DNA from: Candidatus Omnitrophota bacterium
Lineage (GTDB): Bacteria > Omnitrophota > Omnitrophia > Omnitrophales > Aquincolibacteriaceae
Assembly (NCBI GenBank): GCA_903819565.1
Contig: CAIJDY010000090.1
Coordinates: 1 to 38,843 of the forward strand
Direction of reading: 5' to 3'
Length of the DNA stretch: 38,843 nt
Shown here in pieces: positions 6,771 through 36,700 of this stretch. The notes below the pieces were generated by a model. That model worked only from the letters and a program-made list of their open reading frames with translations, was not told where the DNA came from and made no database searches. Position 1 is the stretch's first letter, and each line of letters opens with the position of its first letter. The position numbers were made by a program, and so were the translations under genes.

Positions 6771-9700
6771 TTATGCGGCAGCCGCGATCACTTTAGAAAT
6801 GACCACGTAATCGGTCATCAACTTCTGGAAAAAAGACCGGAGCGCGGATTGATAGCGGCCCGTCTTATCGTAACGGAATCCATTCTTGAGGGACAGGTCT
6901 TCGGGCTGCGCGACCAAAAGCGCCAGAAAAACGCCTTCCCCGCCCTCAAGGGCGAAATAATCCTTCACGCCTGCCGCGACCCGCGGGTTCAGCCGGCCTT
7001 TGAACGCTTCCGCCGTGTCCTGATCTTTATCCGAAAGACCGATCACCGCCGTTTTCGGATTTCTCGCGACCGCGGGAAGGTCCAGCGTGACCCGCACGCC
7101 GAGCTCTTTCAGATCCGCGAGATAGGGACTTTCGGGGCCTTCCAGAAGATCCGGCACCACCAGATGAAGTTGTTCCTTATTGATCGCGGCAAATGCCATG
7201 AGCTGCCGCATCGCGGTCCGGGACAACGCGTCGAGCCTTTTTTTCTCGACCACGATAACCGCCGGCTCCTGGAGCTTCAATCCCACGCCTGATTTCATCA
7301 CATCCGTACGGACTTCGCTTCTTTCCACATTCTTTAAAATCACCGCTTCTGATGAAGCTGGAGCCAAGGCTTCTTTATTTTGATTTTCCGCAGGAACAGC
7401 CCGTACTATGGGAGCCGCAACCTTTCGCACTTCAGACCGGGGCTTAACCTCATCCGCTTCGGAGGCGGCGGATCGGGTTTCACGGAGTTCGGAGCGAAGA
7501 AGGTTCATCGCTTTTTCGACCAGGGCCGTCCGGTCCATGCCGACCTCCTCATCGCTCACCTGTCTCTTGAAGGAGTAATCGTACTGGTGAACCGAGGGGG
7601 TGAAAAGCACAACGTGCTCGTAGGGCCCCTCAACTGCCAGAAGGTCGTGGACCGTTCCCGGCTGGACGAACGCGACATCGCCGGGCCGCAAAGTAACGAG
7701 CTCGGGATGATAGCGCCCCTCCGCATCTTTGACAAAATACACGAGAACGGCCGCGCCTTTCGTCACCATATACGTTTCCACCAGTTCCCAATTTCCGTTC
7801 ATCACGGGATGTTCATGAAGGCTCTCGGCCGCCCTTAGATCATGGAAAGAAAACACTCCCTCGTGCTGCAGGTACTCAACCCTGGAAACACCCACGATCG
7901 GCGGGAAATAACTCCCGGGAAATTCCTGGGTAGTCGAATCAGTCATCCACACCGTCGCATCCTCACCGCCGTTCTTGAGGTCATACCAGTTTTTCCGGTC
8001 CCGGTGCCGGTAGACCACGGCGTCGCCTTTCTGCCACGCCTTTCCGGATTTGTTTTTCCCGGAATCTTCCTTGTTCCATTTGTACCAGGCCGGAGATTTA
8101 TCGACCGTGATCACGACCACATCGCCGCGATCGACCAAAACCGAGGCCGCGGCACCATGGCTCATCCCGATCACACCGGGCTCTGAAAGTGTAAAGGACT
8201 CGCCTTCCGTCGTCACGGTCGCCGCCGCGCCCGCCGGAACGATGACCTGGGTTTCTCGCTCAAAAACGCGTGTTTTTTCCAATAACGCTTTCGCCGCCGC
8301 CCCCTGATAAAGGACCGCGTGGGTCTTGCTCTCCTCGCCCACAAAATCGTCCAGATGATAACCGCCGTCCTCGCGGAGCACGGAGACTTCTTGTCCTCTT
8401 CCCGTCAAACGCACGGCCAGCGGACCAGACGATGAAGCGGCATCGTCCCTGATTTCCGACCGCCGCTTACCCCTGACCACCTCGGAGGTGTACAAAGGTG
8501 CCACTTTTGAGCTGGCGGAGCGGGCCTCACGTATCTCGGAGCGCCCGACAAAACCGTCAGTGGAACGGCTGCGCACTTCGCTCCGCGAGGGGGCTACCAG
8601 CGGCAGGCCCGGCCGCGTGGTGCCCAAAATCGCGTGAACTCCCACGATCGTTTCCCCGGGCTGATAAGCATCCGTTTTGACTCCATCGAAGTGGACCCAC
8701 GCCCCGACGTTATCATCATTGGGGTTCGAGGATCTCGAGATCCACCCCTGGACCGGAAAATCCCCCGCGGATACGTCCGGAAGCATTTGAATGAAAGTCG
8801 TCGGCCGGTATCCCCACGAAGAAGGCTCCTGATCGGCCAGATACACCGGACTGCCGTCAAGCGGCCGGGGCTCCGCGATGATAAAATGGTCCCCTCCCGC
8901 GATAGGACTGCTCACCGTTTCCCCGTTCTTGAACTGCTGGACCACAAAATCCGAATCGTGCGCCGTCCCGACGTTCATGGAGCTGAATTGAAGGACTTTC
9001 CATCCCTCGTGATTTTGGGCGCGGAGCGCGTCCACCGAAAAACTTTTCTTCGCTTTCTGCGTGAACGAAACCTCTGCCTCAACACTTTCGGGAAGCGGCT
9101 GTTTGAAGATCATTCTGAAATCCCTGGCCTCCCACGCGCCCGCCTCGTCCTCCATAACGCCGTCCATGATGATCGTCCCGTCCGGTCCTTCCCGGAACTC
9201 CGCCTGAGTGATTCTTGGATTATGATGATAAACACCGCCGCTCCAGTATCCCGGCAGCACAAAACTGGTTCCCCAATCCACTTTTTCGCCGTTGGGTCCG
9301 CGATAACTTGCGGGCAGAGCGCCGCGGATGTAGCCGTTCCCTTTGACGCTGAACAACTGGTCCCCGTTGTAAGTGATCTTGATCTCCGTGAAACCCCCGC
9401 GCGAGGTCGTGATCGTCCGCGCGCCCAGCCCGGTATCGGAGGCGCCCAGGAGCTGCCAATCGCCCGATTCAAAAAGAACGTTCCCATCGGCGTTCCCGTC
9501 ACCGTCGGGTTTCTGCTTCACGCAGCATGCGGCGATCCCCATCACCGATGTGGCCGCAAAAGCCCGGGCCAACAATTCGACAAAGTTTCCCCGGGACATA
9601 TTTTTCGAAGCTTCGCGGCGGACTTCGGACCGGGGGTTGGAATGTTCTTTTGCGGCCAGCATTTCGATCCTGTTCAAAATATCGCGGCCCTGCGAGGCCA

Positions 9701-12700
9701 TGTAATGAAGGCTCCGGGAGAACGCCTCCGGATATTCCCAGATCTTTTCTTCAAAGGCCCTGATCGACATCACCCAGAATTCATCGCTTTCCTCCAGATT
9801 GAAATTCGCCTGTAGCGCCTCGCTCTCCGCGGGAGTCAGAAAATAAGCATAGACCGTGGTAAATTCGTTATTCTCTTCGCCGTCCGAAGAGTAGGAACGC
9901 TTGATCTGGTTGATGCCGGAGACCCTGTAGAGCCTGCGAGGATTCACGATGATCCCCGCTTCTTCCTCGCCTTCACGGATCGCCGCCACAGCCGGCTTTT
10001 CCCCTAAATTCACGTGCCCGCTCACGGAAACCTGAAGTTTCCCGGGCGATGAGGATTTTTTCATACTCCGTTTCTGGAGAAGTAACCGTCCCTGCGCGTC
10101 AAAGAAATAGATGTGCGCCGTCATATGCCAAAGCCCTTTTTGATGGGCCACCTTTTTAGAAACCCCCTCGCCCGTCACTTTCCCGTGTTCATCCACGAGC
10201 GCCAGCACCTCTTTTTCGTCCGAAAAATTTTCCCCGATCTTTCCTCCGCGTAAGACCGTGACGCCGCGCAACAATCCTTCCGTCTTCCAGAACTTTTCAT
10301 CGCGGACTTCAGAACGCTGGACGAACCCTTTGAGCATTTCGGGATGATGCAGGAAATACAAAAACGTCTGTTCAAACCCCGACTGGAGGGGCACCCGCGG
10401 CGCATAGCCGAGAATTTTACGGGCGCGCGTCAGGTCCGGACGCCGCCGGTTCGGGTCCGTGGGGTCTTTCACCGGCACGACCTTGATCGGGACCGTTCTC
10501 TGGAGATACTTTTCTCCGAGAGCGTTCGCAAGGTCCGCCAGTTCGCGAAGCGTGAATTCGCCGTCGTTCCCGATGTTGAAGACCCGTTCGGTGATCGGCG
10601 TTTCCGGGGCCAGTGCCTCCGTCCGCAAAAGTTTCAGGATCCCGTTCAGCGTATCGTCGACATAACCGAAGCTGCGGGTGATCCGCTCGTCGCCGTAGAT
10701 CTCGATCGGTTCATTCGCGAACAATTTTCCGATAAAATTCGTAACGACGCGGCCGTCATCAATTCTCATGTAAGGACCGTACGTGTTGAAGATCCTGACC
10801 ATCCGGAGATCGAGCCCTTCGGCCGCGTATTTTTCGTTATAAAGCTTGATGAGCGTTTCGGCGCCGCGCTTGGACTGATCGTACTGGGAGCGTTTCCCTA
10901 ACGGGTTGACGGACCCGGCATAGGTTTCGGGCTGGGGATGGACCTTGGGATCGCCGTAAACTTCCGAAGTCGACGTGAAAAGGAACCGCGCGTGCTTGCG
11001 CCGGGCCAACTCCAGAGCCTCGCGCGTCGCCAGCAATCCGGCGCGCAAAGTCTCGAGCGGCTTTCCGTAATAATCCACCGGACTCGCGAGCGAACCCAGA
11101 TGAAGCACCTGATCGATGGGCCCTTCGACATCGAAAGGCCGGGACGCGTCGAACTTCGCGAGATAAAGATCCGTCTCTCCCCTGAAAAGGTCCTCAAAAT
11201 ACGGATTGGCGCTCACCATGCTGTCCACCACGATCACCTGGTGCCCTTCGGTGAGGAACCTTTTGACGAGATTCGTTCCGATGAATCCCGCGCCGCCGAT
11301 CACCAGGATCCGCTGTTTGCCCTTAGGAAGCGGCGGCAGTTCCGGACGGATCGTTACCGGTTTGACCGCATCCTTCTCGATGCTCACGAAATCCTCCATC
11401 GCGCGCCGTTCCAGCAGGAGGTCCTTCGAAGCGACATTTTGTCTCCCGCCGAAAACCTTAACCCACGGAAAGATCCTTGCCGCCATCCGTTCCTCGGGCG
11501 TTCCGGTCCTCTCCTTGATCTTCTTTCCGGCCAGGATCTTGACGGCTTCCGCGATCCTTTCGCGCGAAACTCCCTGGCGCGGCAATTGCAGGACGCGAAT
11601 GTCCACGTTCCCAAGCCCTTTAAAGCGGTAATAGGCGCTGGCCCAGGCCATGGCCGTGCGGGCCCCTTCGATCCAGGGTGCTTCCTCGGCCAGCGGGCCG
11701 AACCCGTTGAGCTCCTCCGGGATCACAAGGACCACGGGTAATTTTTTACGAACGGCATATTCCAGAAGTTTCGGGAAATCGAAAACCGTTTTATGGAAAT
11801 CGCGCCACGCTTTATCAAGGTCCTTGGGACCTCTCGGTAAAACGGGTGTTTCATACACGATACCTTTTTCCGCGCCCGTCGCCGGGTCCCGCGCTACCCA
11901 CGTCGTCTCCCGCACCTCGGAGCGGGCGGATTTGTCTGAGGGCTCGGGGTCCGTCGCTGTCTTGATAGGTATGCTTAGGGTAAAAGTGGTCCCTTTATCA
12001 AGCTCACTTGAAACCTCAATCGCTCCGCCGACCCTGCGGATAATGTCAAAGATGATTGGAATGCCGTGGCCGCTACCTCGCTTCTTGGTGGTAAAACTTT
12101 CGCCCCGTTTCACACGTTCAAGCGTGGAAGGATCCATACCGACGCCGTTATCGCTCAAGCTGAATCTGAGAAATTTTTGATCATTTTGAACCATTACCCC
12201 AAAACGCATGCTCAAGGATAACGCGACATCTTTCCTTTTCGCCTCCACCGCATTGCCGATCAAATTATCAATGAGAGTCAACACATCAAGTCGCGACAAC
12301 GAAATCGGCTCCATGTTGAAGCTGTCACACTGAGTTTGCTCATCAATTTGATCCAATGATTCGATTCCAATCTCTTTAATCCTGTTTTGCAAATAGATCC
12401 GCAAATCGTTTGCTTTCACATACCTTTCAAGATCAGGAAGGCCTTTTTCACCCCACTCATTCAGTAGGTTAAACAGCCAAGTCGTGTCATAATTATCGAG
12501 ATAAACCTCACGAATCCAGGGAAACCCGCATTTTTTTAGAAACTCGAGATAACGCTTGTTCAAAGGGATCAGTTCGGTGAGATACTTTTTAAGAAGGCGA
12601 ACGATGTAAGCTGACACTCTTGCCGAAGTGTATATCCGGGATCTTCTACTACTGCTATATTCTCTTATGAGTTCAATGGCGTCGTGGGTGTCCTTTCCAG

Positions 12701-15700
12701 CTGATATCAGTTGCCGCGCTTCACCGTCTTCTTGAGGATTAGTGGTCTTGAAATCTTTAACCTCAACATAAGGGCGCTGGACATGATTCGACCGATGTTC
12801 GAAATCTTCCTCGTGTATGTGGGCGCCTATTTCCAAATACCGCTGTTCTTCGTCGGCTGTCATCGCCCTTGAAAAAGCCGCCTCATCAAAATTACGCGTA
12901 AGCAGAAGAAGCAAATTCAATCTCTCCCCGACCTCTTTAAGACGCGTATCGGCTGTAACAAAATAAATCGGCCTCATAACAAAAAAATCCGAGAGTTTGT
13001 TGATAAAGGCGCGATCTTCTTCGTTTAGTTGCGGCTTTAAAAACAATTGTTCGAGCCGCGCGATAGTTCTCTCCTTTTCCCGGAGTTCCTCCGGTATCAC
13101 CGTCGGGTCCGATTCAAGAGAACGCACCTCGGAGCGAAGCTCCGAAGATTTATGAGAATCCGGGTCGCTACTTGGAAGTTTGATGGCAGCAAGCCTTTCC
13201 AAAATCCTGTCAGCCAGCCCAAGGCTCGGCTCCTGAGGCATCCAGGTAAATTCAGGAGGATAATAAGGCGCGATTTGGTAAAAATTAAACGGCCCGATCG
13301 GGGAGTATTCGCCGACCTCACGGAAAACCGCTTCTGTTTCGTCATCCACTAAAAGGCTGTAGCCCAGGAGGGCGATATCTTTGCGATAAAGGATCTTGCG
13401 ATAAAATCTGTAGACCTTTTCAAGAGACGCCTCATCCAGTCCCGCGCCGTTCCTGTAGGCCGCCGCCAATTCTTTTTTAGTGGTCTCGGTGAGATCGCAG
13501 CGCTCCCGCGTGTAGGCAACCTGGAAATTTTGGCTCGTAATGATATGATCAAAATAGGACGCCATTGCGGCAACGTTCCCGCCGAGCATCTCCTCCACAG
13601 CCTCCCGGTCGTTCATGGTCCATACAACCATCCGTATTCCGCGCGCTTTGAGTTTGGCAAGCTCTTCCATGATACCGGGCCGCAGCGCATCGCCATTTCC
13701 CAGCGTTAGATCCAGATCGAACACAACGGTCGGCGTGACGGCCGAGATTGCCCGTTCCCTGCGAATGAATTCCGCGTCAAAGATGCTTCCTTCAAGAAAA
13801 GGCAGCCGCGACTCGGAGCGGGAGGCACTGTTCCCATACCGCTCAGCCAGCGCATTGATCTCCGCCTGAATCTGCGGGGCGATTTCCGCATGGGCTTTCG
13901 GGGTCAATACGGACGGAAGCCGTTTCAGGATATAGCTGAGCCAATACCGGTAGTTGTCCGGGTCCGTTGTCCAGGTTCTCATCCAATACCGGATAAACGC
14001 CCCCGAATCAGATTTGTCGGAAAATAAATAGATCAGGGCGGGAAGGAACAGCCCCATACTATCGAACCGCGTCTTGAGATCGTTCACGATCATCTCGAGG
14101 ACCGTGTCATTCTCCTGCGACATCTCAGGGACCCCGCTTCTTCCGGCGGATCTCTCCACCGAAGCCACGAGCGCGCGAACCAGTTTTCCTGCCAGGGCAT
14201 CCAGATCGGCACTTATAAACGGTTTCATGAAAAGCTGAGGGCTTTGATCCAGATGAGAAAGGATGTCCTCACGCGTCAGAAGCCGGTTCAGAGCATCCAT
14301 GATCCCGCGGTCCTCAAATTTCGCCGGCGTCAGACCGTAAGAAACCTGCACGAAGCCGCCTGACCTCAGGTCTTGGGCCAGGTTTTTCAGGAACAGGAAC
14401 TCTTTCTGATGGGAGTCTTCCCCGCCCGGCTTCTCGTAATGAACGTTCTTGGCGATGATCAAATCGAACTTTTGAGACCCCGCCAAAGCGGCCATGCCCT
14501 CCGCGTCTAGAACGTCCACCGGCTGAAAGGAAAATTGAATATTCCATCGTTTGGCGAACTCTTCGGGATCCAGGATCCGGCTGGTCGTTCCATCGACCGG
14601 CCGGAAAAACTTTTGGAACTTCGCGGCCGAATCTTCCGCATCAAGATCGTTGCCGCCGCGTTCACGCAGCGGGTTACGCGCCGTTTCCGTCCCATAAACT
14701 CCGCGCCGGGCGATCTCCACGAGCCGCGGGTCGATGTCCGTGATCGTGATCCGCGTCTTGAATTTCCTGGAAGTCTTCTCCGCGTGATCCGCCACCGCCA
14801 TCGCGACGTCGTATCCCTCCTGCCCCGACGAACTCCCCACGGTGAGAATGTTCAGTTCTTCCTGCGGGCCCAGGTTCTCAATCGCTCTCCGGACCGCATA
14901 GACCAAACTGTAGCCGTTGCGGCCGAAATAAGTTTTGGGAATGCTCAGGCTGGAGTCCTCTTCCCGCACTTCGGAGCGAATTGCCTCCGGAGTGCCGGAT
15001 GGAACTTTCCGATTTATATCACTGAGGTTTAACCCCGCGGACCTCAGTACCCCGTCCCAACCGCCTTGGTTTCTGAAAACTCTACAAGCCTTCTTGTAAA
15101 GCGTTGCCCCTGTCCGTCTGTGTCCGAATACTTTCTGTAAAATATCTGTCGTTTTCTGCGTTCGATCTTTTATGATGATTCTGGCGTGCAGGTCCACCCC
15201 GGCCGCGGCAAGGGCCTTGATCACATCGGGTATTTTTTTGATCTCTTCATCGGACCAGTAAAACACTTCACGAATTTCATTAGGATCTAACCCCGCAAAC
15301 TCCAAGGCCCCGTCCCAACCGCCCTGCTTTCTGAAAACCTGATGGGCATTGTTATAGAATCTCGCTGGGAGCAGCTCGTACCCGTATATTTTCTTTAAAA
15401 TGTCTTTTGATTCCGGGGTTTCGTCTGCCATAAGCGCGCTGGCTTTTAAGCCCCCCAGCCCCTTTTTCTCAAAAATCGCCTTGATCACCTGGGATATTTT
15501 TTGTTTTTCCTCTTCGGGTTGAACCGTGCGGAGACGGGCATCCTTAACGTCAAGCCCCTCGGCCTTTAATAACGCATACCAGCCGCCTTGATCTTTGGAA
15601 GCCTGACGGACCAGTTCATAAAATGTCAGTCCTGTCATTTCGCGGCCGAATATTCCCGTTAAAATGTTTTTTGTTTCCCGGGTTTCGTCCGTTATGATCG

Positions 15701-18700
15701 CGCCCCACTTTAAGCCTTCCGGCCCCTTTTTCTCATAAAGCGCTTTGACCGCCGCGGGAATTTTCTCGATCTCTTCTTCGGACCCGGGCCCTGTCAACCT
15801 GCCATTGGATCGTAATCTCAGGGGGAAAACTTCGCCGCCTCCAACCTGGCCCTGTTCCACTTCGGAGGTGTCTATAGCTTCTTCACCGGCGGTCGAGCGT
15901 ATTTCGCTTCTTTGCGAAAGCGCTTCGGCGCGGTTCATTCCGGCATCCGCTTCCATCGGCCCGGCTGGTTTTTCGACCTTGCGAAATCGAAGCATTTTTC
16001 CGTATCGTTGCTCGACCAGCAGCTGCTTCAGCTCGTTATTTTGTGGCAGGTCGATCTCGACGTACTGATCCTGTCTTAAAGGAAAGTCAGCAGACGCATC
16101 GCCTTGTGGTTTGCCTGAAACCCTTCCTGATGATGATGGGACTTCATGGGAAACATAGTGGTCATCGGTCACAAACCAGGCCCCTGCAGGCATGCCCGCG
16201 TAAAGAGCGCGGATGAAATTCTGCGGCCCTTCTGTCTTGTAAGATTCCGCGATCTTATAGCCCCGTTTGAGCAGAAAGACATCAAAACCCTGGCGGATGT
16301 TTTTCTTAAGGATCTCCGGATATCCATACGGATCGGTGATGTCCGCATTCACAAAAAGGATCGAGTGTTCCTGTTTCGGCTGTAGTCCGAAATAGTCCCA
16401 ATCAAAACGTATGCGCGGCACCCCCAACACGCCGTCAGCAGAAATATCAAAAATCTTTAAGGCATTGAGCTCTAATAAAAGGCTCATCCTCAAATATTCT
16501 TTGACTTCGGTATCGACCGAATGGGCCCCGCCCAGATAACGCTTGGCATGCAGATAACGCGATATTTGCTCCGGATCCCCCAAAGAAAGTAAAGCCTTGT
16601 TCCCCTGTTTTTTCAGAACCTTGAGATTTTCGGCCACCCATTGCAGATCTGCTACATCAAGCTCCGCGTAATCCGAAACAAAGATATTCTTCGTCGCCCC
16701 AAGCATCACAAGAGCCCCCGAAATGTCCGCCCCGGCACCCCCGGAAATGGCGGTCAGGGGCTTCCCTTCGGGATTAACAGTTTGATGCACATTCAAGGCG
16801 TAGAGAAAAAGATCATCACCGAAAAGTTCCGTAACCACCTGAGAAAATCCGTTTGCCAAAATACGCATCATGAGATCATCCGCAGATGCAGCTGAAACAG
16901 GCCGGTCTTCCCGCGCTTCGGAACGCGCGGCGGGTGTAGGAACGGATTGAATGCGCTGAATATTCAAAGGAATATCCGTTTTTTCTTTCAGCCGTTCGGC
17001 CCAGGCGGTTTGGTAAGTGCCGATGATCAGCGTCACGCCGAGCAGTTTGGCGAAGAACGCGAGCGCCGTATTCAGGATATCGATCAAAGTCCGGTTCGAA
17101 CCATAAAGGCCATCGACCACCGCCACGATTCTCCCTCCGGAGCGCATCTCTTGCAGGACCCTTCCGTTCAAGAGCTCCAGTAGCGCCTGAAAAAAGCTTT
17201 CGCCATGAAAGAACGAGAGGTGATCATTGATAGAATCCAGAAAAAGCGGGGCGCGGCTTGCAAAAACGAATTCGCTTCCGAACTTAACGTGTTTTGCGGG
17301 CACAAAAAATCCGTGGCGCACGCACGCCAGGACAAGTTCCGCGGTTTTAAGAGCCGCCCGCAGCTCTTTTTCGCTTCCGGCGGTCACAACATTCGTTTCG
17401 CCGAACCGGAACCGCATATCCGCGGTCCCGGAAGCGGCTCCCTTTTCTTCCGGAGAGAGCGCCGCGCCTTCGATAGTAAGAACATCCGCCTCCGCGCCTT
17501 TTTGCGGCAGCGTGAGATTTTGCTCCGCGACCGCCAGGGCAACCCCGGTCACGATATCCAGGTATCGCATGGTGTTTCCCGTATATTCTTTTATTTCACG
17601 GGGGTCCTCCTTCCGGGTTTTTGCCCAAAAAGCCTCAAATGATTTACTGTAAATATTCACGCCCAAACGCGACTGGAAATTATGGATCTCTTGAACAGCC
17701 TTCACGATCGCGGGGCCATTTTGAAGATCGCCCCGCGCACCCCGGTCATTCATAAACGCATACGGATCTGAAAAATATTCCTCGTTTTTAAGCAGGGCCA
17801 CATAACCCCGGATCTTCTGATGGAGTTCACCCAATTGCCGGGCGTTCATTTTTTCCAGAAGCAGCCGGACCTTTTTGACCAGATCCGTGACCTCTAGTCC
17901 CGCATAGCGCTCGGCGACCAGATATCCCGTCCCGCCGAAAAGGATAGCCTTACGGGGTTCGATATATTCGCCCTTGCCAGGTAGCGCAGCGTCAAATGCA
18001 AAATAACGGTTATCGATGAGGTGTCTCTCGTGTAATAACCTGTAAAAATCACTTTCATCCTCATCACGTCCCGTTTGACGAAAATCACGGATGGATTCCA
18101 ACGGGCCCAAAACGCCCTCTTTCAGAAAACGGCGCGCCGCATCGAACGCGTCGCCGAATGACATTCCGAGTTCCCGCCGCGCCTCGAGAATGGAGTGGTC
18201 CCTGACATCGGTATCGCCCGGCGTGTAGGGGACCGTGCTGTAATGGAATTTTAATTTCTCGTCCGGGTCTACCGTGGTCAGCAGTTTCTCGGCCCGGATG
18301 CGGCCGCTCAGGGTTTCGTCCCCGAGCAGCAGGTCCACGGCTTCATGGTGATGGGTCGCGACCATGACCGCCTGGCCTCTTTGGATCGCGGCTTTGGACT
18401 CGCGCAGGAAGTCCCCTTCGTTCGGAAAAGCCTCGTCCAGGATGATCAGCGTGCCGGTCCTCGCGGGGATAGGCTGTTCCTCGGCGGGCTTCCGGATCAC
18501 GATCTCTTCGTACCAGCTCGTCTCAAATTCGGAAGGAACGTACATGCCGAGACGCGCCATCACCGCGTACAGCGCGGCCGCCTTGAGAAGCGTCGACTTG
18601 CCCGAAGCGTTCGCTCCCACCAGGACGAGAAAAGGTCTTTCCGGCGAAAGGTCCAGGTCATTGACCACCCGCGGTCCTTCCAGAAAAGGATAAACGAGCT

Positions 18701-21700
18701 TGGGCGCGTGAAAATAGCCCGGCTCATTTTTAAGCGCCGGTTTTTTCCAGTTCTTTCCGGCCGCCAGGTTCGCCATGACCCAGTAAAAATAAAGCGCGTC
18801 GGTGAAATTGCGGCTGAAACTCTCGGCCTGACCTGCCCCCTTGGCGAAAGCGTTTAAACGCTCCCGCTTTGAGCCCCCGGACTTGATGGGCCGGTCCCCG
18901 GTCAGAAGACTGCCCACCCGGCTGCGAAAGCGCTGGAACGCTTCGGCTTTAAGCCCCCGGAAAATATCGCGGTCGCGCCGGAGGATCTCGGTCTGGGCCT
19001 TGCTCCCTTCGGCGGCGGCATAATCTTTTAAGAAAGTTGTAAACCGTCCCGTGAATTCCCGATCCTTCGCTTCGATCTTTTGGGCCAGTTCCCCGATGGC
19101 GGCGAAAGAATCCTCGGCCTGCCGGCGGGTCGGCTTCTGGCTCGTAAAGAGCTGCTCCAGATAATTGTAAAAAGGTTTTCTGAAAATCTCCCAGTCAGGC
19201 GTGTCGCCGCCGATGGTCTTGACCAGATCGGAAAATTTGAGACCCAGGAACGCATACAACGCCTTGGTCATCGGCTTCGCGGCAACCGCGGGACCTTTGT
19301 CCACCTCGGCCTCTGGCCCTACGGGCCCAATGGCCCGGAGGAAGGTGGCGGAGCGGGTATCGCGTATCTCGGAGCGAACAGCAGGCGCGGCAGAAGAACC
19401 GTCCTGTCCCTTGCGCTTCAACGCGTAAGCCTTCATCTGATCTTCTGCTGACAAATGCAGATCATGGACCCGCATGGCCCGGACATTCCCGTCCGCCATG
19501 GTTTCTTTAATGTCGCCCCAGTGCCGAACCTCCACAACGAATTCCAGGAGCGGTTGAACCCATTCCAATGCACTTTCGTTATAAGCGCTGAACACGAGTA
19601 GTCCTTGAGGAGCCAGAGAGCGCACAGCCTCTTTGGCGATCGTGTTCGCCTCATCCGCGGGAACGCCGTCAAGAACATTGGGCAGGATCACAACATCGTA
19701 TTTGAAAGCTTCCAGTCCCGCGTCCTGAATGGGACTGGCGATCAGCCTGTAAGGCTTGAAGGAGCGGCCGACTTTTTTCTCCAAATATTTCAGACTCAAT
19801 TGAAACGTTTCGACCATTCGCTTGTGACGATCATATCCCGCCTTGACCTGATATTCATCCGGCTGGACCACGGTGACATCAAGATCCGACAAGAGCGCGT
19901 AACCGACAAGTCCCACATCTCCCCCGGGGCCCACGATCAGAACTTTTGTGCCCGGAGAAAGCTTAAGCGACTCCAGGATGCGGATCATCTCGCGCTCATG
20001 AGAGTCCGCCTCCACCTTTCCGGAAAAAATCCGGCTTACAGCGGATGGCTCATCTCCGGCGGACGATCGCGCTTCGCTTCTTTGCGAAGACGGCGCGGAG
20101 CGGGCGGATTCAAATGCACCCGCTGAACGGTCGCCGCCCCTGTTTTGCTTGGTGACAACCACGACAAATTTATAATCATCCGGGGCAAGAGGCACGAAAT
20201 CATCGGCGCGTATTCTTCCGCCATAGGGAAAGCGGGAAAGGAATTTCTCATAAGCCTCTCCTTTTCCATCCGCATCGGCCGCTTCCCGGGAATATTCCGG
20301 AAATTCAATAGTCTTGATCTCAAAACCCGCCGGAACAATACTGGCGGCGAACTTCGACAATGCCGTCCTGAACGTTTCTCGGCTACTCTCCCGGCTCACG
20401 CGGAGAGCCACCGACGGGGTGTAAGTCTCCGCGATGATGAGCTCACCTCCCCTTTTCAACACCCGCCGTGCTTCCTGCAATAATATTTCTCTCGAGGACT
20501 GCCCCAGCCCTGGCGCGCCAACGACGTTCGCCATGTACACCTCATCAACGCTCTCATCTTCCATCAACAGTTTTCTTGCATCGGCTACGACATAATCTAT
20601 TTGCCCTATAAATTTTCCGCCCAACGCTTCGAGCCTCTCGTCATCTCTTTGCTTAGCCCGCGAAAGAGTCCCGCTTCCTCCAAATCCGTCTACTTCTTTA
20701 TTAAGTCTGTCTCTCTCTTCGCGGCTTTCAGTCCCCGAATTTAAATCCACCCGGATAATATGCGCATCCTTGTAAGCTTCTATGTTTTTATCGCTGAGCC
20801 ACGGTGAGAGAGACCCTCCCGGTCCTATTTCCAAAGAAACAAACCTCGCCTCGGAACGCGCGTTCTGTTTCGACAATTGATCCAGCGGAAGTTGTTCGAT
20901 CTCCTGAGACGTTAACAGGCTCTCGGCCATGTTCCCGTCCGCCATCATCGTCCCCAGAACATCCTGTTGCTTAAAGAAGTTCCGAAGGACCCATTTGAGG
21001 GCCGGCGGGATCTTTTGGAAATTAACGGTCAGGGAAGGAACCATCCGGTTCACCTGCGCCTGCAGGGCTTCCCGTTCTTCCGGGGTGGAACCGCCCATGC
21101 GCTGCAAAAGAACTGTCGCGTTGCCTGAAGACCCGACCAACCCTCTGGCTCCGAGGGCCAGGGCCTTCGCGGCATTCATTTCACTGCCTTGATAGACAAA
21201 TTGTTTTTCCGGATCCGTGCGCGCCGCCAGATACCCGCCGAGAATATCAAGGTCTCCGGAACTGTCCTTGATCGCCTCGATAAATCCCCTGCGCCACAAA
21301 TTACCGACAATGCCCGCCGCAAGGTTCCGGCCGTTCGATAATGCCGGGTTGTTATAGAGGGAGATCGGAAGCGCGTCGTGAAGGCTCTTATGGATCGCTT
21401 CGATCTCGGGTTCAACCTGCGCCGGGTCTTTTAAATAGAAGAGCGGCGCCACCACGAGCCCGTCGGCGCCGGCCTCCGCGGCCGCCTGAACATTTTCCAA
21501 AGTCTCCGCGGAAGAACTTCCCGTAACGTTGGTCAGCACCCGAAGCCCGGCCTGTTTGGCTTCCCGGGTAAGGATCTGTATGGCCTGCAAACGCTGATCG
21601 CGATCCATCTTGTGGAATTCCCCCGTCGCCCCAACGGCCAGGATCGTGTGAACCTCCAGCGTTTTTAAAAGCTCAAAATATTTTTTCATCGCCGCGGTAT

Positions 21701-24700: not shown

Positions 24701-27700
24701 TCGGGAGATCAACCGCGACATCTATTTCCTGAGTTTTACCGGATTCCCGTACTTCGGAGCGGGCATCGGTATCGAGGCGCTCTTGGGGTGTCAGACCGGC
24801 TTCCTCAAGCCATTCCGGTATTTTTTTTCGGTCCGCGGTACTGGTCACCATGAGATGAATCCCCGTGGCGACACCGGGATAGTCCCGCATGAGCTTTACC
24901 GCGGCCTTCATCCTGTCCTTGAGCCATGCGGCCCTTTCGAAAGTCAGTTTTTGTTTTTCACCAGACCACTGTTTGATCCTTTCGATCTCTTCCGGGGCCC
25001 CTTCGATCCTTTGGGGCGCAAGAATGCCCGTCATCGCGAACCAAAAATTAAGATTGTTCAAGGATTTGACGGGCGTGATCCCGATCTTGAATTGTGCCTG
25101 CGGGTATTTTTTGAGGAGTCCGCTCTGTTGGATCTTCCTGAAAGCTCTTTCCATGGGCTCCCGGACGATCAAGGGCTGGAGAAAAATGACCGTGGCCCCC
25201 GCGGCGAGCTTGGACTCTAACTTCTCAAACCATCCTTTCTCGTAAGGATTGACCGATGCCGCGAGAAGGATCTCTTTCGGGATCTCGCCCTTCTCCCGCA
25301 TGTCCCGGATCATCCGGAGCACGGCGGCCGTATCCAGCGGCAAAAGCCCTTCAAGCCCCATCAGCCGCAACACCTTCCTGAACCAATGCCCGCCCGCCAC
25401 CACAAAAAGGACCGACGCCTTCTGTTCGTTAGTCAGAGAAAGGACCGTCTCCCTGATCGCGGCCCTGGAATAAAGCTGCAGGGCGACCGGCGCGATGGAA
25501 CCGGGAGGGATCTCCATGCGGGTGATCCTTTCGAACTTGTGGACCTCGGCCCAAAGGGATGTCATCAGCCGGCAAAGAAACGTGATCCACCGGGCCGGGG
25601 CAAAACCCTGATCCTCAGGTTTTTGGGCCTGCCGTTCGATCCATCGGCCCAATCCCTTCAAAAAACCTTGGAACCATTTCCGGTAAGGCGGCACGCCTTC
25701 CCGAATCTCCCTGTCCCCCCGCGTCATGGCGGCGATATCAGCGGTCCGAAAACTGAACTCGGGAGGATCAATGACGCTGGCCCCATCGGTCCAGCCTGCC
25801 GCCTGAAAGCCGGCGAAAAGGGCTTTCTGCTCCTCAAAATTCGCCTCGCTTTGGGTCTCCCGCTGCCCCGGCGCGATCATCCGCGGCACCACCATTTCGG
25901 TCGTGACCGTGATCTTTTTCTGCCGGAGCCTTGCCGAAAGCGTCCCGAGCCGGTCACGGGTCGCTGTTTTTTGAGGCTCCAGGGCTTCCGCCGTCCGTAC
26001 CTCGGAGCGAGCCGCCCCGGCATTTTGAGACTCATGGGCAGGCATGACGGGAGCGGACAGAAAGCGCTGTATGGCGTCCCTATCGATGTCTGAAAACATT
26101 TTCCCAAACGATACCTGGGTATCGTCCAGCGATTCATCCCATTTGGCTTTGGGATCATCTTCGAACCCGGTCCTGACACGGCGCTTGCCGGTTTTCAATC
26201 TCACGTCACAAACGATCTCATCTTTGGAGGCCTCAAGAACATCCTCTCCTTTTTCTTCCACGGCGGCGACAAGGCTTCCCGTCGCGGCATGGAGGCGATG
26301 GATCCGGGAATCGATAATGACGGCCCCCGAGGCGACATTGCCGGAATCAATTTCGGTGCGTCCCAAAATAACCGCGCCCACGTCCACTTGGACCTCTTTG
26401 CCGAGCCGGACATCTTTCCCCAGGATCGCGCCTGTTTTCTCATCGATAGAAACTCCCATCAATTCCCTCAGGGCGGGATCCTCAAAAAGCCGCCTGGCCG
26501 CATCCCGGTACCCCCGGTTATCTCCGATATGGACATTCATCCCGTTCCTGCCAGTATCGATGAAACCCATGGACAACGACGGAAATGCCTCCCGTCTGAG
26601 CAGAAATCCCTTGTGCAGCGTCAGGTTCTTGTCTTTAATGACTCCGCGATCATCCAGGTATTCTTTGAGCAGAACGTCAACCGCCCGTGAGGACAAATAC
26701 AGGCCTGACTTGTTAAAAACGGCCGCCTCAGTCTTGCCACGCAGGAAATCCGCCGCCTCCCATGGGATAATTCTCACCACGTTATTGTCTTTATCCGTTT
26801 CAACTTTAGGATGGAGCGACATGAATTCATGGCCCACCGGCACGACGGCGCCAAAGAGCTGTATGTCCTTCGAGTCATATTGCGGAATGGGCCGGCTGAT
26901 CGACGTGATCCGGTCTACTTCAAATATCGAAACGCCGCGGACGCCTTTTTTGTAAAACTGCATCGATTGCCGCAACGCCTGCCAGACGTTGGGCTCGCCG
27001 TTGATCCCTTTCAGAAGCCCTTTGTTGCCTAATCCGTCTCCCGCCGTCAGAGGGTAATTCCTGGCCCCCGTGCCGCCGGAAAGGATGACTGCAATGTTTT
27101 GCTCGCCGTTATTCGCTCCGGTCTTCGTGAGCCCGTTGAGGGTCTCGATGATCGAAGAGAAAATACCGTTGGAATCGTCTGGGACAATGCACACGAGGAT
27201 CGTCGGCTTGCCGCTCTTGGGTGAAATCTTTTCAACCGGATCCTGAGTGAAATCAATGATCTTGAACTCGGAATTCGCCGGGACAACGATTCCCTTGGCT
27301 TTCTCGAGCGTTTCTAGCATGTAGGGAGCGTCGGCTCTTTTCACGGTCACGGCCGCCACATCGAAATAGCTCTCCGGATCCCGGAGGGCCTTCGCGATGT
27401 TGGACCGCTGCAGCCGGACGCCGTAATATGGGCTATCATGGAAAGGTGCGAGTTCCGAGTCGGACGTGCCTTCTTCCCGTACCTCGGAGCGATTCCCAGC
27501 GCTAGGGTCAACCGCCTTGCCGGTCCATGTTCTCCCGGCCTTGACTTCACCGTTCGCTTTCTCTCCGATGAACCGGACGCGCCATGTTCCCTCCTGAGGA
27601 CGGGTCACCGCGATCCGGAGGTGTTCGGAGTTCGTTCCGATCCATGTGTAATAAAACATTTCGGCTTCCTGCCCGTTGGGAAACGGCAGATCGTCGGGAA

Positions 27701-30716: not shown

Positions 30717-33700
30717 TCACCCCGCGGGCGAAATCGATCCACGGCACGTGCGCGGGCTTTCCCTTCCGGAGCCGGTCCATCACGTCCGCGAAACGGGCAA
30801 GATCGAAATCATCAAAGACCTCGATGTCGCCGTCCGGCTGGATCGCGGAACGGTTCCGATCCTTGAGAAAATTGCGCGCGTAAAGCACCAGGTTGTTCGC
30901 GTCCCGGAGCCGTTTGACAAAAGCTTCCACTTTGGGACTGCTGAGCACGGAGACACGGTCGCGGCCCTCCTCGAAAAGCGAATCCACCGCGATAAAGATC
31001 ACGGGCTTGGCGATGCGGGAACGCTCCAGGGCTTTTTGGACCTTTATTTTGAGTTCCTTGGGGAAAGGCGCGGGACGGATCCGGTACAGATAACGGAGAT
31101 AGCGTTCGCTCAGCTCCGCGACGTTGATGAAATTCCCGTCCAGGGATTCTATAAGGATCCGCTCGAAGGCCTGGGCGCGCGCGCCGTTCGCTTCCCGCTC
31201 GACCAGGCTGTGGCGCGCGATCGCCCAAAGCGCGTGTTCGCGCACCGTCGGGTCCGGGTCTTTCCATAACGCCCCGATAGGCCCTCCGTTAATCAGGCCC
31301 CGGAGAGGCTCAAGACCCGGGTGCGTGTCTTCCCGCAAACGTGCCAAGGCATCCACGGCCGCGACACGGACCGCCACGCTTCTTTGCTCTTCGGGATCGA
31401 GCTGTGCCAGGAGCGCGTGGATCGCGTCAACGATGACGTCGCTTAGCGGCACCTCCCGGTCCAGTTTTAAATGTTCCAGGATCTTTCCGGTCGATTCCGC
31501 GGCGTATTTTTTCGCCCAAAAACCGGCCTCCGGGTCCTTTAAAACGCCCGTGAGGATCTCCAGCGAACCGTCGCAGGGCAGCGCCCCTAACGACCGCAAA
31601 ATGGCTTCGCGGACCGTAACCTCTGTCTCCTTCGAAAAACGGCCGACCAAAGAGCTGTAGGCCCGCATCCCATCCCCGAAATCGAGCCGTTCGGCAAATT
31701 TTCCGATAGCGCCCGCGCAGACCTTGCGCACCCACGGATCGTTGTCTCCCAGGCCCCGGAGGATCAGTTCAAAACCGCGCCGGGCGTCTTTCGACTTCAG
31801 CCCCTCTTTCCGCAAAATGCGTCCCATGCATTTGAAATAAAGTTCGCGAATGCTGATGTGCGTGACGGAAGAAACGTCGCCCGCGTCCTCGGCCCGAAGT
31901 AAAGTTTCGTTCAGCAACTTCGGCAGGTTCGGGTGGATCCACAAAAGCTTTTTGACGGCTTCCCACCGGCCCTTGACGCCCGCCGCTTCGGAAAGCCTGT
32001 TCTTTAAAAAGCCCCTTAATTTTTCCTTTTCCGCGGGCCGCAGCTGTTTTTGGAAGGTCTTCTTCAATTTTTGCCGCACCGCAAAATACGCCGGATAGAC
32101 GATCCATTCAAAATGGCCGAAAAAGACGAAGGCGGCAAGGGCCGGCATTTTCAAAAACAGCAGGATGGGGCTCAGCAGGTAGTCTTCCAGAAGATTGTAG
32201 GCGACCACAAAGATCACGACGTCGCGGCCGTATTCGGACAACTGCCGCCACAGGGCCTTGAAAGTTTCCTTGAACCGGAAAATGGAAAAGAACTTTTCCC
32301 TGAAGGTTTCCACAAAGAATTCCCTGAGAATGTTCCGCGCCCAGACGAGCGATATTTTTTCTTTTTCGTCCTGGTAGCGCTGGAAGATCTGGTCGACCAT
32401 GAAGCCATGAAAAGGCTTGACCCACGTGGAGCGCCCCCGGCGGGGCGTCTTGAGGTTGCTTCCCCGCTCGAAAGCCTCGAAAGAACGGAACGCTTTTTCC
32501 GTCTCTTCCCGAGAGCCGAGGCCTGCCGGCTCCCCGGCAACCCGCACCTCGGAACGCGACTGGCCATCGTCCACCTCGGAGGTGGTGGAGCGGGTGGCTG
32601 TGAAATCCGGGTCTTCCTTCGAGGACATTTTTTTCGCCGTGATAAAGGCCTCGTCGTAATCAAAGTCGTCTATTTTGAAATCCGAAAACCCCAGACCCGC
32701 CAACACCCACCAGTGCTCCTTCTCCGGCCACACATCGCGCCACATGCCCGGATAATGTGAAAAGATCCAGAGATCCCCTCCCGGCTTCAAGACCCTCGCG
32801 GCTTCATAAAGGGCCTTATAACGCAATACCGGAGGCATCAGATTCAGGTACCGGTCGCAGATCACCACGTCAAATTCGCCGTCGCGGAGCGTCAGATCGA
32901 GAGCATTCATGTCCCGGTAATCAAGCGGCACGCCTTTCTTATTGATGAAAACCTTGCCTAAGGAAGCCGCCAGCGGATTCGACTCCACGCCAACGACCTC
33001 TTTGGCCCCCGCCTGATACGCCCAGACATAAGAGGATTCCCCATAACCAGCCCCGAGCACAAGCACCCGTTTTCCCTTAATAGCTTCTGCCGCTCGCGGG
33101 AAATTCGATTCCATCATCTCCGTGACATTGGACAACACATCGTCCGGGGCGTAGAAGTCCCTGCCTTCCGAGATCCTTAACGTGATCAATCCCTCGTAAC
33201 GGCCTCCCGGCCTGTAATAAAACGCTTTAATATCCTCCACAAGTTTTGTTGACAGGCTTTCATGCCCGGAGATGATCGTCTTCAGTTCTTCCCGCTCGGA
33301 AGGAGTGATCCATTCTTCCGTTTCTTTCTCGACCTCCCGTACGCCCGCGACTCCCTCGCCGTACCTCCCACGCAACAGGTCCTCAAGCGACCGCACCTCC
33401 GAACGATCAGGAGTTTGATCGGAACGGACGTCGCGGTCCCGAGAAATCCCCGGTTGAGAACGGGAAACGTCGCCGTTCCTGCGGTAAAAGTAATAGACGC
33501 TGACGGACGTGATGAGCAGGGCGGCCACACCGGTCGTCGCGGAAACCAGAAAGCATCCGGCGGACATCAGAAAGCCCCATTTCGCCACGCCTTTGGTTGA
33601 CAGCGTGGGGTTTTTCGTGAAGGCCATCATCGATCTGAAAGTATTATTGAAAAAACTGAGCCCGAAGTAAACGAGAGGCCGCAGGGCCATCGGCACGACG

Positions 33701-36700
33701 TTCTGGACCACGGCCTGCTGGAGATAAACCGATGCCAAACGTCCCATGATCCCGTCCCAGATGCGCCACAATTGACGCCGGACCACGAGGTCCTGGCGGA
33801 TCTCCTCCGCGCGGGCGAAGTCCCCTTTGGCCTCGTGCTGTTTCGCGTCAAGCCGCCCAAGGACGACCGGCTCGAAGAGATCGAAAATGATGCTCGCCAC
33901 GAACCCCAGGACCAGGGAAACGAACGCGCGCATTGCGGGCTCCTGAAAATGCGCTTCAATGAACCAGTTGACCGCGACCTGATAAGCGCCCACCAGCGGC
34001 CGCCAGAGGACCTGCATGCCGAACATGACCGAAACGACGAGCGGGGAACGCCGTGTCGCCGTGTCCGAAAGGATCATGCCGATGATCCTCGCGGCAATGC
34101 CCATCACGAGAGCGATGCCCGCGGCGATCGCGCTCGCCGAAAAACCCGGCGTCTGCTGCGCCTGCCGGAACTCCTGCCATAAATTGATCCCGGTCAGACC
34201 GTAAACCGCCCACTGAATGACCGCCGCCGCGCCCGCCACCGCGCCGAGGATGATCCCGATCTTGATGATTTTTTTGTTTCGAACAACCTTCGCGTCCGCT
34301 TCCCGAACCTCGGAGCGGAGCTTTTGCTTAAAAGACGCCAGGGTCCCGCTGTTCTGCCGGATCCATCCCCCCAGATTTTTATGACCTTCTATTTTGTTGA
34401 TCGCGTCGATGATCTCCCGCCGGTCCTCTTCGCTCAGTGTTTTCCGGTGTTCCCCGATCAGCCCGCCGATCTTGTCCAGTTCATGCTGCAGGTCATTACC
34501 GTATTTTTCTTTTTCCTCATAACTCCGATCGTCCAGTCCTTTCGTCCCGACCCAGGCCTGGGCAAGAGTGGCCAATAGGGAGATCCCGTGCAGGATGGCG
34601 TTCTTCCCGGCATGGGGCACTTGATCGAAACCTGCCTGAACCGGTTCGCCCGCCCGCACTTCTGAACGAAGAACTCGATAACAATGGATCTCTGGACCAA
34701 AAACAGCATCGACGGCACGGCTTGCGATGTATTCAAACAATTCCGGAGGAGGAGTCTTTGTGTCGGTGCCAAGAAAAAGATAACGTTTGGTTTGAGAGTG
34801 GATACGCCGCCAAAATTCAGGCCTTTCGGCCAGGTGCCCCGCCATGCCCGGAAATTGGACAAAAACGGCATCAAACTGTTCATCGACTCTGAAAAGGTCC
34901 TGTATGAGGTAACGGATCGTCATCCGGCGACCGGCGACATCCTTATCCCAAAGGCGGGTGTGGGTTAGGTTGATCGCAAGATCTTCGCCCTGTCTTTGAA
35001 CTTCCCATTCAGCAAAAAGAAAACCGAGTTTTCCAAGAACCTTTTTCATCTGCCACAAAACCCCTACCGCGCCGCCCCCTCCAATGATATCCGGAAGGGC
35101 TTTCTCGTAAGGATCGAAGTTGTCCGCAAAGGTCAAACTTTTAAGTTTGGGAAATATCTTGGCAAGGTTCCGCACGCTGTAAAAATCCGTTCCGCCGGCC
35201 GGGTAGTAGATCGACCCTTCGAACGACGCCATAAAGCTGTCGAGTTCCTCCCGCACTTCCGCTCGGGCGGAAATTTGGCTCGTTGCCGTTTGAATTTGCG
35301 ACTTTAAATTACGGAAAAGAACGCGGATTTTTTGGATCGGAACGGAATATTTTTGCCGAAGCAATTCTCTTTCCTCGAGATGGCCCAGAGCGCGCAGCAA
35401 TGCCTTGGAGGTCAACAAGCCTTCCGTAATCTCAATACCCGCTTTCAATGAAGGAGGGACTTCAAACGCAGAACCCCCATTCCCGAGAAATTGATCCAGC
35501 AGCTGGGTGCTAAAATCCAGATCCGTGATCTTATTGTTCAAAATCTGAATGTTTAAAGAAGTGCCGAGCTCTCGGTCCGTCTTTCCCGCGATCGGCCGGA
35601 TAAGCCCCAGCGAATTTGCGGACCCATGCCGCAATTCTTCATGGAATCGTGTTTTTTCGAAGCCGCGCGCAGAACTTTCCGCCTCTTCAATAATTCTGTC
35701 GAGAAAAACAAAAAAATCTGTGACATCTTTTTCCAACTGGGCCGCCACATTCCGCGCCTCTTGATCCGCGGCCGTCCCCCGCAAGTCCGCCGGGATATCA
35801 CTTCGCACTTCGGAGCGGGAGGGAGCGATTCCGAAAATCTCAGAAGCAGGGGTTTCGGTAGATTCCGAGTTCCTGAAAATAACGGCGATGAGTGCCGCGT
35901 GGAGACCATAGCTGAAGGCGCAGGCAGCGGCGATCGCGGCAAGGTCCCAGACTGAAAACGTCGCACCGGCGAACTTCGGGTTTTTTAAAATCCAGGGCCC
36001 GGTGATCTCTGCGGCCATAAATGCAACCAAAGCGACCATGTGTACGGCCCTGGCAACACGATCCATCATCGGCCGTCCCATTTCTTTGATCATCAAATAT
36101 AATCCGCCCATGACAAAGTGGACGAACGTCCAGGGAAGAAGAAAATCAGGAGCCCAGCCCAAGGCCCAGTCTAAAAGAGGGCTGATTGAACTTAAATGCA
36201 AGGCACTCCGCATGGCTTCCAGTTTGAGATCTGCCAACATACCCACCACAAAAAAAGAAAACGAGAGACTGGAAGGCAAGGCCATTTTTATTCTCGATTG
36301 CCACCGGCTCGGGTCCGCTTTGTCGCGCGTCCCGTTACCCTCTCGAGGGAGCTCCGTTGCTTTTTTCCGTGCCTCCGAGCGAATCTGCTCTCCCGCGACG
36401 GGCGATCCCACCTGTCCGACAGGCAGGCCTGCCTTCGCGGGAGGCAGGTATTTTTCCAGAAGCGAAACGTCGGCCCCGGGATTCAAACGCGCGGCATCGT
36501 AAACCGCGTGGATCTCGAAGGAACCGTTCACGTTCTCGAAAATACGCTGAGGGCTCGTCGCCGTGGCCTGAGCGATCGCGCGCTCGAACGGCAGCGATCC
36601 GACCGTCATGAGTTTTTTGTAATAATCTTCGTGGCGCGGGCTGGGTTTCATGATGCGCGGACTGACGACGCAATAACTGATCCCCTTCGCCTCGAGGATC

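Follow-up and report, generated by a model that had tools for sequence, protein, structure and literature searches.

Very long open reading frames (ORFs) have been described in the Omnitrophota, as in Velamenicoccus archaeovorus (Seymour et al. 2023; PMC10066038). They were reported to contain adhesin-like domains and few annotated domains, and cleavage of the huge proteins has been raised as an open possibility (PMC11573180). Two other systems are comparable. The MARTX toxins of Vibrio are very long exported bacterial proteins, in which unrelated effector enzymes are separated by unstructured segments cut by a protease (PMC2900308). In the plastid polyproteins of Euglena and dinoflagellates (RBCS, LHC), a targeting sequence comes first and a conserved short linker stands between the units behind it; the RBCS units of E. 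gracilis are cut out after import (PMC6242988). Here, a 38,843-nucleotide stretch of DNA from a Candidatus Omnitrophota bacterium (GenBank assembly GCA_903819565.1, contig CAIJDY010000090.1; hereafter the window) was analysed. It contains two giant ORFs, A and B, which come from the phylum of the published very long ORFs and are of their kind; ORF A, at 23.8 kb, exceeds the 20 kb used to define giant ORFs in the Omnitrophota. An earlier note on this DNA had described 32 copies of a pentapeptide, R[SA]E[VIAMLS]R (hereafter the mark), at almost every boundary between unrelated enzyme modules. A term search of PMC10066038 found no linker motif, no N-terminal head domain of the kind described below, and no polyprotein reading. 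The motifs are unmentioned in the Omnitrophota giant-ORF papers searched (PMC10066038, PMC11573180, and PMC12057145; bioRxiv and most subscription journals lay outside the search).

The window encodes one of the many giant polyproteins of an Omnitrophota bacterium. Judging from sequence, it consists of a Sec signal peptide, a head domain resembling TIKI proteins and erythromycin esterases (Ere), and a train of largely enzymatic modules on flexible linkers. Nearly every linker holds one mark, sometimes two or three, which here takes the form R-[S/A]-E-(hydrophobic)-R. The peptide is very probably read in trans by one factor per lineage, which would serve the punctuated polyproteins of the cell. 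The best explanation, to which we give an even chance, is that this factor is a lineage-specific endopeptidase, which would cut the linkers after export and release the modules. With less certainty, the modules may act outside the cytoplasm. Drift in the specificity of the endopeptidase would then bring about genome-wide drift of the mark, giving RSExR, LSDSR, [AG]xSLG, [AS]GFGA, and [AG]ARLA. The broadest claim falls a little short of an even chance: much of the phylum may export dozens of multi-enzyme polyproteins per genome, cut at a genome-wide five-residue mark, with the enzyme and its hundreds of sites having co-drifted into at least five dialects. The common head domain, the Sec signal, and the dialects are new here and go beyond the earlier note.

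All 32 copies of the mark are present, 25 in ORF A and 7 in ORF B, and the outermost ones coincide exactly with the end points given for the system, 7308 and 36381. Composition shuffles gave means of 0.18 (A), 0.06 (B), and 0.23 for both together, with a maximum of 2 in 1000 shuffles, so that the observed number lies far above the composition-based expectation. RSE.R is also the top over-represented gapped pentamer of the two ORFs (30 copies, 0.28 expected). As had been stated, the motif is absent from glgB and the other small neighbouring genes. ORF B has an eighth match, RAEGR (37261-37275). This match is part of the folded N-terminal domain and has a fourth residue outside [VIAMLS]; it is probably due to chance. 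The whole-genome motif search identified the DNA pattern for RSE[VIM]R 119 times, versus 8 times for the reversed control.

Gene calls over 60 loci of the source genome and its relatives, a set chosen partly for the motif, showed an RSExR density of 2.05 per 1000 residues in ORFs of at least 2000 residues; the motif is nearly absent from ORFs below 1000 residues, with none in those of 300-600 residues. An independent set was formed by 67 Omnitrophota loci selected solely by similarity to the head domain. Its 75 head-bearing ORFs contain 383 copies, compared with 11.2 expected, and its 402 small ORFs contain 13, compared with 6.8 expected; most of these 13 are located in contig-edge or broken pieces of giants. 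The logo over 321 sites reads R-[S/A]-E-[V,M,A,L,I,T]-R, S being commoner than A in second place, and there is a weak preference for A/S before and E after it. RSE.R is enriched 94-fold and RAE.R 14-fold above expectation, and Ala replaces Ser in about one fifth of the copies. Other substitutions of the four fixed residues are not comparably enriched.

The placement of the marks was analysed by Pfam scans of ORFs A and B and six giants of the independent set, which gave 32 confident domains covering 4545 of 33,718 residues. None of the 119 marks lies inside a confident domain, where 16.3 would be expected, and none of 10,000 circular shifts gave a count as low. The description of marks at almost every boundary holds: of 25 pairs of adjacent domains, 21 have a mark between them, compared with 16.9 by chance. 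The four unpunctuated pairs include CN_hydrolase-NadE, a known single enzyme. The marks are internal, with a median spacing of about 250 residues. Their flanks are linker-like, with P, S, T, and A enriched and L depleted; a common hydrophobic flank was not seen. The head domains contain no marks (67 domains, 28,373 residues), versus 2.71 per 1000 residues downstream. In 51 of 62 giants, compared with 17 expected, the first mark follows within 120 residues of the head. The ends of high-scoring segment pairs are only modestly enriched near marks, 10% lying within 10 residues versus 4.8%.

The DNA consensus of the mark was found 88 times in the coding frame and never in the other frames, and as many as 262 different 15-mers code for 330 copies; therefore, the constraint acts on the peptide. 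The synonymous sites are largely saturated, with four residues fixed; the third codon positions are mixed, and the Glu codon is unbiased. A DNA-level repeat or recombination site was ruled out, as the consensus is confined to the coding frame. The Ser codons are TCN in 96% of the copies, whereas ordinary RS dipeptides have TCN in 68%. The mark probably spread through the lineage by copying from a common ancestor, and selection probably acted on the peptide afterwards. Two further codon biases were observed, which remain unexplained beyond common descent: the first Arg codon is CGY in 82% of the copies versus 42% in other RS dipeptides, and the Val codon is GTG in 56% versus 29% in other EVR.

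The head domain and giants are also found in families of the class that lack RSExR, and other marks were therefore sought. Each genome was searched for recurrent short peptides, a site being counted only if its flanks were dissimilar from the others, and observed numbers were compared with shuffled ones over head-bearing and other large ORFs. R[SA]ExR is used by the family of the window and two or three others. Family f1 has 576 copies (23 expected), with SLG (24 versus 22) and GFG (22 versus 22) at background; family f3 has 52 (1.3 expected), family f4 has 8 (0.3 expected), and family f2 has 4 (0.3 expected) on little sequence. The fourth residue is genus-specific within f1: G023 and G030 have L almost exclusively, G025 frequently has M, and G018 and G024 have A. 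LSDSR is used instead by one f3 genome (G036), with 9 copies in a single ORF of 3,958 residues. The mark of family f5 is [AS]GFG/GFGA (71 versus 1.3 expected; RSE 1 versus 4), and that of family f6 is [AG]xSLG (123 versus 2.9 expected; RSE 0 versus 6.3). SLG is also found in family f7 (45 versus 0.7 expected), and family f8 has the weakest dialect signal (11 versus 1 expected). Outside the class but within the phylum, family f20 uses GARLA (23 versus 0.07 and 17 versus 0.17 expected); the first mark again follows the head, and the spacing is hundreds of residues. Altogether, the dialect marks are RSExR, LSDSR, [AG]xSLG, [AS]GFGA, and [AG]ARLA. Block-shuffled controls scored about 8-18 in the same test, compared with 15-123 for the real dialects. 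Among loci fetched later by the head only, all 28 f6 heads were followed by xSLG within 400 residues. Within the class, the sequence examined from families f9 (little sequence) and f10 gave no clear mark, and neither did that from f14, f23, and f41, which lie outside the class. Several of the largest giants (as in G011) are hardly marked in the parts sampled, and punctuated and unpunctuated giants coexist.

Homologous modules in different families carry different marks at the same place. In the clearest case, a TPR-ending module of the source genome (L011, ORF residues 142-810) is flanked by ARSEMR and FRSEVR; its homologue in G042 (L227, 1958-2660) is flanked by TGFGA and SGFGA, and each mark lies 4-9 residues from the alignment ends. 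Two more such cases were found between an f8 giant (L107) and the f1 giants L143 and L106. A FastTree phylogeny of 127 heads requires 15 changes between RSE and SLG, at least 8-9 of which are forced by well supported branches; some long branches meet, and single joins are unsure. The head subfamily of the window (support 100) includes an f5 head with GFG marks behind it. The head paralogues are thus older than the dialects, and by these comparisons the punctuation tracks the genome, not the attached head. A trans reader would give rise to this pattern, in which paralogues older than the split of the families each carry the dialect of their present genome; a cis reader would demand parallel change in 10-50 divergent heads per genome.

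All inspected punctuated giants with a complete N-terminus start with a signal peptide followed by one conserved domain of about 450-500 residues. A strong hydrophobic helix precedes the head domain in 61 of 67 homologous heads, versus 7 of 67 background windows, in the independent set. The head domain was found in all 49 genomes of the class, with 1 to 56 matches per genome; across the phylum, 104 of the 193 genomes sampled have it. It fronts ORFs of up to 35,113 residues; the open frames of 35,113 and 26,995 residues are fronted by the heads at G038:C37:183453-185114 and G008:C5:147087-148967, respectively. Over 55 heads of about 20% identity, H35, E63, R360, and G-G-x-H410 (A2 numbering) are invariant. 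A confident AlphaFold2 model of the head was obtained, with a predicted local distance difference test score of 82 and a predicted template modelling score of 0.80. The sequence search of the head against the PDB gave no match, and Pfam gave weak ChaN matches only. The PDB fold search placed erythromycin-esterase-like proteins (EreC, BcR135) at 4 of the 15 best matches, with E values of at least 0.39 and TM-scores below 0.25. The active residues of RRSP, a TIKI endopeptidase, are E3900, H3902, E3930, R4001, and H4030 (PMC6254334), and the H35-E63 spacing of 28 equals that of H3902-E3930. The His-Glu pair, the basic residue, and the second His of the TIKI/Ere pattern are all found in the head; the position two before the first His, a Glu in RRSP (E3900), varies between D, N, E, T, and S. 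From the sequence pattern and the model, the head may be described as TIKI/Ere-like, not as a proven member of the superfamily. One alignment column of the head, column 183, is S/A/T/G in RSE genomes versus K/R/E in SLG genomes and tracks the dialect most strongly. It is the one outlier, yet z=4 is exceeded by 61 of the 468 columns. The phylogenetic background is strong, and the signal may be phylogenetic.

The features of the window are collected in Table 1. ORF A is probably the continuation of ORF B, because it has neither the head nor the signal that punctuated giants otherwise have; the two would form one polyprotein of about 10,500 residues. The B/A junction is likely a frameshift, either real or an assembly error. 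The junction was sought in relatives, and no homologues were found. The related loci come from Omnitrophota metagenome-assembled genomes, except for one weak match from Elusimicrobia. This match (L225) is a weak head-domain relative on a contig binned as Elusimicrobia, and possibly reflects misbinning or an earlier origin of the head. A separate cluster at 261-1833 resembles, on inspection, a small exported helical protein, an anti-sigma factor, and an ECF sigma factor; it is unrelated to the giants.

Table 1. Features of the window. Marks are given with their ORF and position in it.
Feature	Position	Strand	Length, ORF position or evidence
ORF A	6771-30620	-	7949 aa
ORF B	30553-38217	-	2554 aa
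68-base overlap between ORFs B and A, each in its own frame	30553..30620	-	Translations; probable frameshift within one polyprotein
Predicted Sec signal peptide, start MKKPKKTVFTG...SVALFTLLSFIATQALLPSPVSLA	38038..38157	-	ORF B residues 21-60; sequence and homologous heads
N-terminal head domain, TIKI/erythromycin-esterase-like	36583..37947	-	ORF B 91-545; conserved H125, E153, R450, GGFH with H500
First mark RSEAR, directly behind head domain	36367..36381	-	ORF B
Mark RSEVR	35803..35817	-	B 801
Mark RAEVR	35251..35265	-	B 985
Mark RSEVR	34654..34668	-	B 1184
Mark RSEVR	34303..34317	-	B 1301
Mark RSEVR	33391..33405	-	B 1605
Methyltransferase module (Methyltransf_11)	32752..33078	-	Pfam E 3e-14
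Mark RSEVR	32542..32556	-	B 1888
HEAT-repeat module	31525..31770	-	Pfam E 2e-8
Mark RSEMR	29964..29978	-	A 215
HATPase_c_2-like module, weak, below Pfam cut-off	29286..29492	-	Pfam E 0.005
Mark RSEIR	29142..29156	-	A 489
Mark RSEVR	27477..27491	-	A 1044
Mark RSEVR	25995..26009	-	A 1538
Mark RSEVR	24747..24761	-	A 1954
Mark RSEMR	22923..22937	-	A 2562
Methyltransferase module	22422..22703	-	Pfam E 2e-23
Mark RSEVR	21849..21863	-	A 2920
Mark RAELR	21783..21797	-	A 2942
DHDPS/DapA-like module; Schiff-base Lys in AIKDSSGD, Tyr in LYNNP (inspection)	20988..21752	-	Pfam E 1e-19
Mark RSEAR	20844..20858	-	A 3255
Methyltransferase module (Ubie-like)	20409..20618	-	Pfam E 1e-9
Mark RSEAR	20067..20081	-	A 3514
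Mark RSEIR	19362..19376	-	A 3749
MutS_V-like ATPase module, just under Pfam cut-off	18498..18632	-	Pfam E 5e-6
Mark RSEAR	16911..16925	-	A 4566
Mark RSEIR	15897..15911	-	A 4904
Mark RSEVR	14964..14978	-	A 5215
CheR-like methyltransferase module	14676..14897	-	Pfam E 4e-11
Mark RSESR	13806..13820	-	A 5601
HAD-like hydrolase module, below Pfam cut-off	13527..13697	-	Pfam E 5e-4
Mark RSEVR	13122..13136	-	A 5829
Histidine-kinase ATPase (HATPase_c) module	11961..12284	-	Pfam E 6e-15
Mark RSEVR	11910..11924	-	A 6233
NAD-dependent epimerase module	10368..11309	-	Pfam E 3e-39
Mark RSEVR	10302..10316	-	A 6769
NUDIX module, intact Nudix box (inspection)	9771..10127	-	Pfam E 5e-13
Mark RSEVR	9618..9632	-	A 6997
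Three-mark cluster RSEVR, RSEIR, RSEIR	8448..8585	-	A 7346, 7360, 7387
Three-mark cluster RSELR, RSEVR, RSEVR	7308..7496	-	A 7709, 7728, 7767

Many of the module names given in the earlier note were recovered by Pfam, some of them weakly: the HATPase, the methyltransferases, and the DHDPS/DapA-like, MutS-like, CheR, HAD, epimerase, and NUDIX modules. The first NUDIX, nucleotidyltransferase, MTHFR-like, cupin, and lipoprotein modules were unconfirmed at Pfam E<=0.01. Several modules of the window have intact catalytic residues on inspection (the DHDPS Lys, the Nudix box, the epimerase YxxxK, and the HATPase boxes). The module repertoire of the giants includes methyltransferases, DHDPS, epimerases, NUDIX, HATPases, CheR, HAD, glycosyltransferases, pyridoxal phosphate enzymes, oxidoreductases, nucleoside diphosphate kinase (NDK), NAD synthase with its glutaminase and an adenylyltransferase, GNAT, HTH, HEAT, and TPR. 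By a crude criterion, about one fifth of the modules contain transmembrane segments; the numbers of transmembrane helices between marks are odd in 34 cases versus even in 15, by a predictor too crude for this parity to be interpreted. The linkers of two giants (L134 and L138, from G042 and G046) hold in-frame translated sequence resembling common intergenic repeats (SFPRKRESS...PRLRGGD, SFAKATEGRQ), as if the ORF had taken up former intergenic DNA.

The possibility that the giant modules are the sole copies of housekeeping enzymes was rejected for NAD synthase, which is a standalone gene in nearly all genomes, with extra copies within giants in some. NDK is standalone in most genomes of families other than f1, and the copies in giants are divergent. 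The standalone NDK gene is missing from nearly all f1 genomes (G007 has one), and a divergent copy within a giant was found in a few f1 genomes only. One giant NDK (L201, residues 1468-1590 of the ORF) has Gln at the expected position of the catalytic His, and adjoins NadE, CN_hydrolase, and NadD-like modules in the same exported chain; a second giant NDK, unlike this one, retains the catalytic His.

Several explanations of the mark may be considered. Among the three offered by the earlier note, a protease site and a docking or sorting tag survive, and a conserved seam does not hold as the main explanation. Such a seam would be inert, copied as DNA together with the modules in recombination or fusion and serving no function in the protein. 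The Ser codon bias suggests that the copies probably share ancestry, and the linkers also hold translated intergenic repeats. However, the synonymous sites are largely saturated around four fixed residues, the consensus never occurs out of frame, and the pentapeptide differs between genomes at homologous boundaries, which a seam would not predict; this explanation is very improbable. Hardly less improbable is that the mark directs some other event in the linker, for example covalent modification, or pausing of translation or folding. The unexplained Arg and Val codon biases might fit such an event, but a pause at the codon level is unlikely as the Glu codon is unbiased. Modification of Ser could not be general, since Ala is found in a fifth of the copies and Ser is not needed in [AS]GFGA and [AG]ARLA.

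The main rival to cutting is that the mark is a docking peptide, bound uncut by a secretion chaperone, surface scaffold, or assembly factor, which would keep the chain unfolded or lay it on the cell surface. Like cleavage, this would need a single trans reader that co-drifts with the marks; the many copies per chain would suit avidity, and giant Omnitrophota proteins have been interpreted as surface or coat structures (PMC10066038). On the other hand, a docking site need not sit at nearly every domain joint and in no domain, and a mark right behind the head is what release of the head would need. Neither point is decisive, and docking is considered unlikely, at roughly one chance in five. The protease-site and docking-tag readings both need a trans reader, and the dialect evidence supports such a reader strongly. 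A still less likely candidate for the reader is the head itself, as a TIKI-type N-terminal peptidase that cuts its own chain or those of its paralogues, like the built-in protease of MARTX. The head is present in every inspected punctuated giant with a complete N-terminus, the H35-E63 spacing is as in RRSP with R360 and H410 matching R4001 and H4030 (PMC6254334), the best PDB fold matches include the erythromycin-esterase-like proteins, and column 183 tracks the RSE/SLG split. However, the heads are only about 20% identical and older than the dialects, so that 10-50 paralogues per genome would have to shift specificity together. The head also occurs in families without a detectable mark (f10, f23, f41, and f14), the 2His/2Glu set of TIKI proteins is variable here at its first acidic residue, and the column signal sits on a strong phylogenetic background.

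Cutting of the linkers by an endopeptidase in trans is preferred because the mark is found in nearly every linker, in none of the domains, and once right behind the head. It is less certain than the trans reader itself, and several observations weigh against it. The search for a processing enzyme yielded none: clostripain (C11) is absent from the class and caspase-like (C14) peptidases are rare in it, so that both were ruled out as the reader. The conserved genes adjoining the giants include none that is protease-like. The dialect marks share little beyond small and hydrophobic residues; thus, one protease family would need to change its P1 preference from R to G/A. An Arg-specific protease, as the earlier note had suggested, finds no support as a general mechanism, since the marks of other lineages end in G or A and C11/C14 peptidases are absent or nearly so. 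Many modules resemble cytoplasmic enzymes, yet the chain bears a Sec signal. Some large head-bearing ORFs have few or no marks (in G011 and G009, and in f9, f10, f14, f23, and f41); therefore, the head and such length are independent of the punctuation.

The giant ORFs of the Omnitrophota are known yet unexplained, and the punctuation supplies a grammar for them, indicating where modules start and end. It makes it possible to annotate and express single modules, and predicts where exactly neo-termini should lie. The exchange of a short peptide at scores of unrelated sites between related lineages would be an unusually clear case of co-drift between an enzyme and its targets. If cutting is true, the working principle of these giants would be that of polyproteins, and these bacteria would have a processed polyproteome with its own evolving recognition code. 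To our knowledge, no other bacterium organises tens of exported multi-enzyme chains like this.

The PEP-CTERM/exosortase and LPXTG/sortase tags are single and C-terminal, and lie beside a transmembrane helix. They resemble the marks in that a genome-wide short peptide occurs in many unrelated proteins and is presumably read by a dedicated enzyme. The marks differ in being internal and repeated at every linker, and a single C-terminal tag next to a transmembrane helix is not what was found. The giants share a conserved short linker between units with the Euglena and dinoflagellate polyproteins. In the latter the units are monomers of one protein, but those of the giants are unrelated enzymes as identified by Pfam along the chain; moreover, the mark has five residues and varies between lineages, and the host is a bacterium. 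The head resembles the TIKI/TraB/ChaN/erythromycin esterase group in the placement of His, Glu, Arg, and His as in RRSP, the weak ChaN matches, and the Ere-like fold matches. It differs in the variable first acidic residue, a large helical insertion, and no significant sequence or fold E value. The MARTX effector RRSP is itself a TIKI-family endopeptidase (PMC6254334), of the superfamily that the head resembles. As in MARTX toxins, unrelated enzymatic modules lie along one chain; the linkers of the giants carry the marks and may be cut there. No MARTX-type cysteine protease domain (CPD) was identified among Pfam matches at E<=0.01 in ORFs A and B plus the six giants, no genome-wide search being made, and no RTX or glycine-rich repeats were among the Pfam matches of the same eight giants. 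MARTX toxins are cut at single Leu sites; the giants have a pentapeptide mark, at which the modules would be released. The giants also have the N-terminal head, up to 56 head matches per genome, and lineage dialects.

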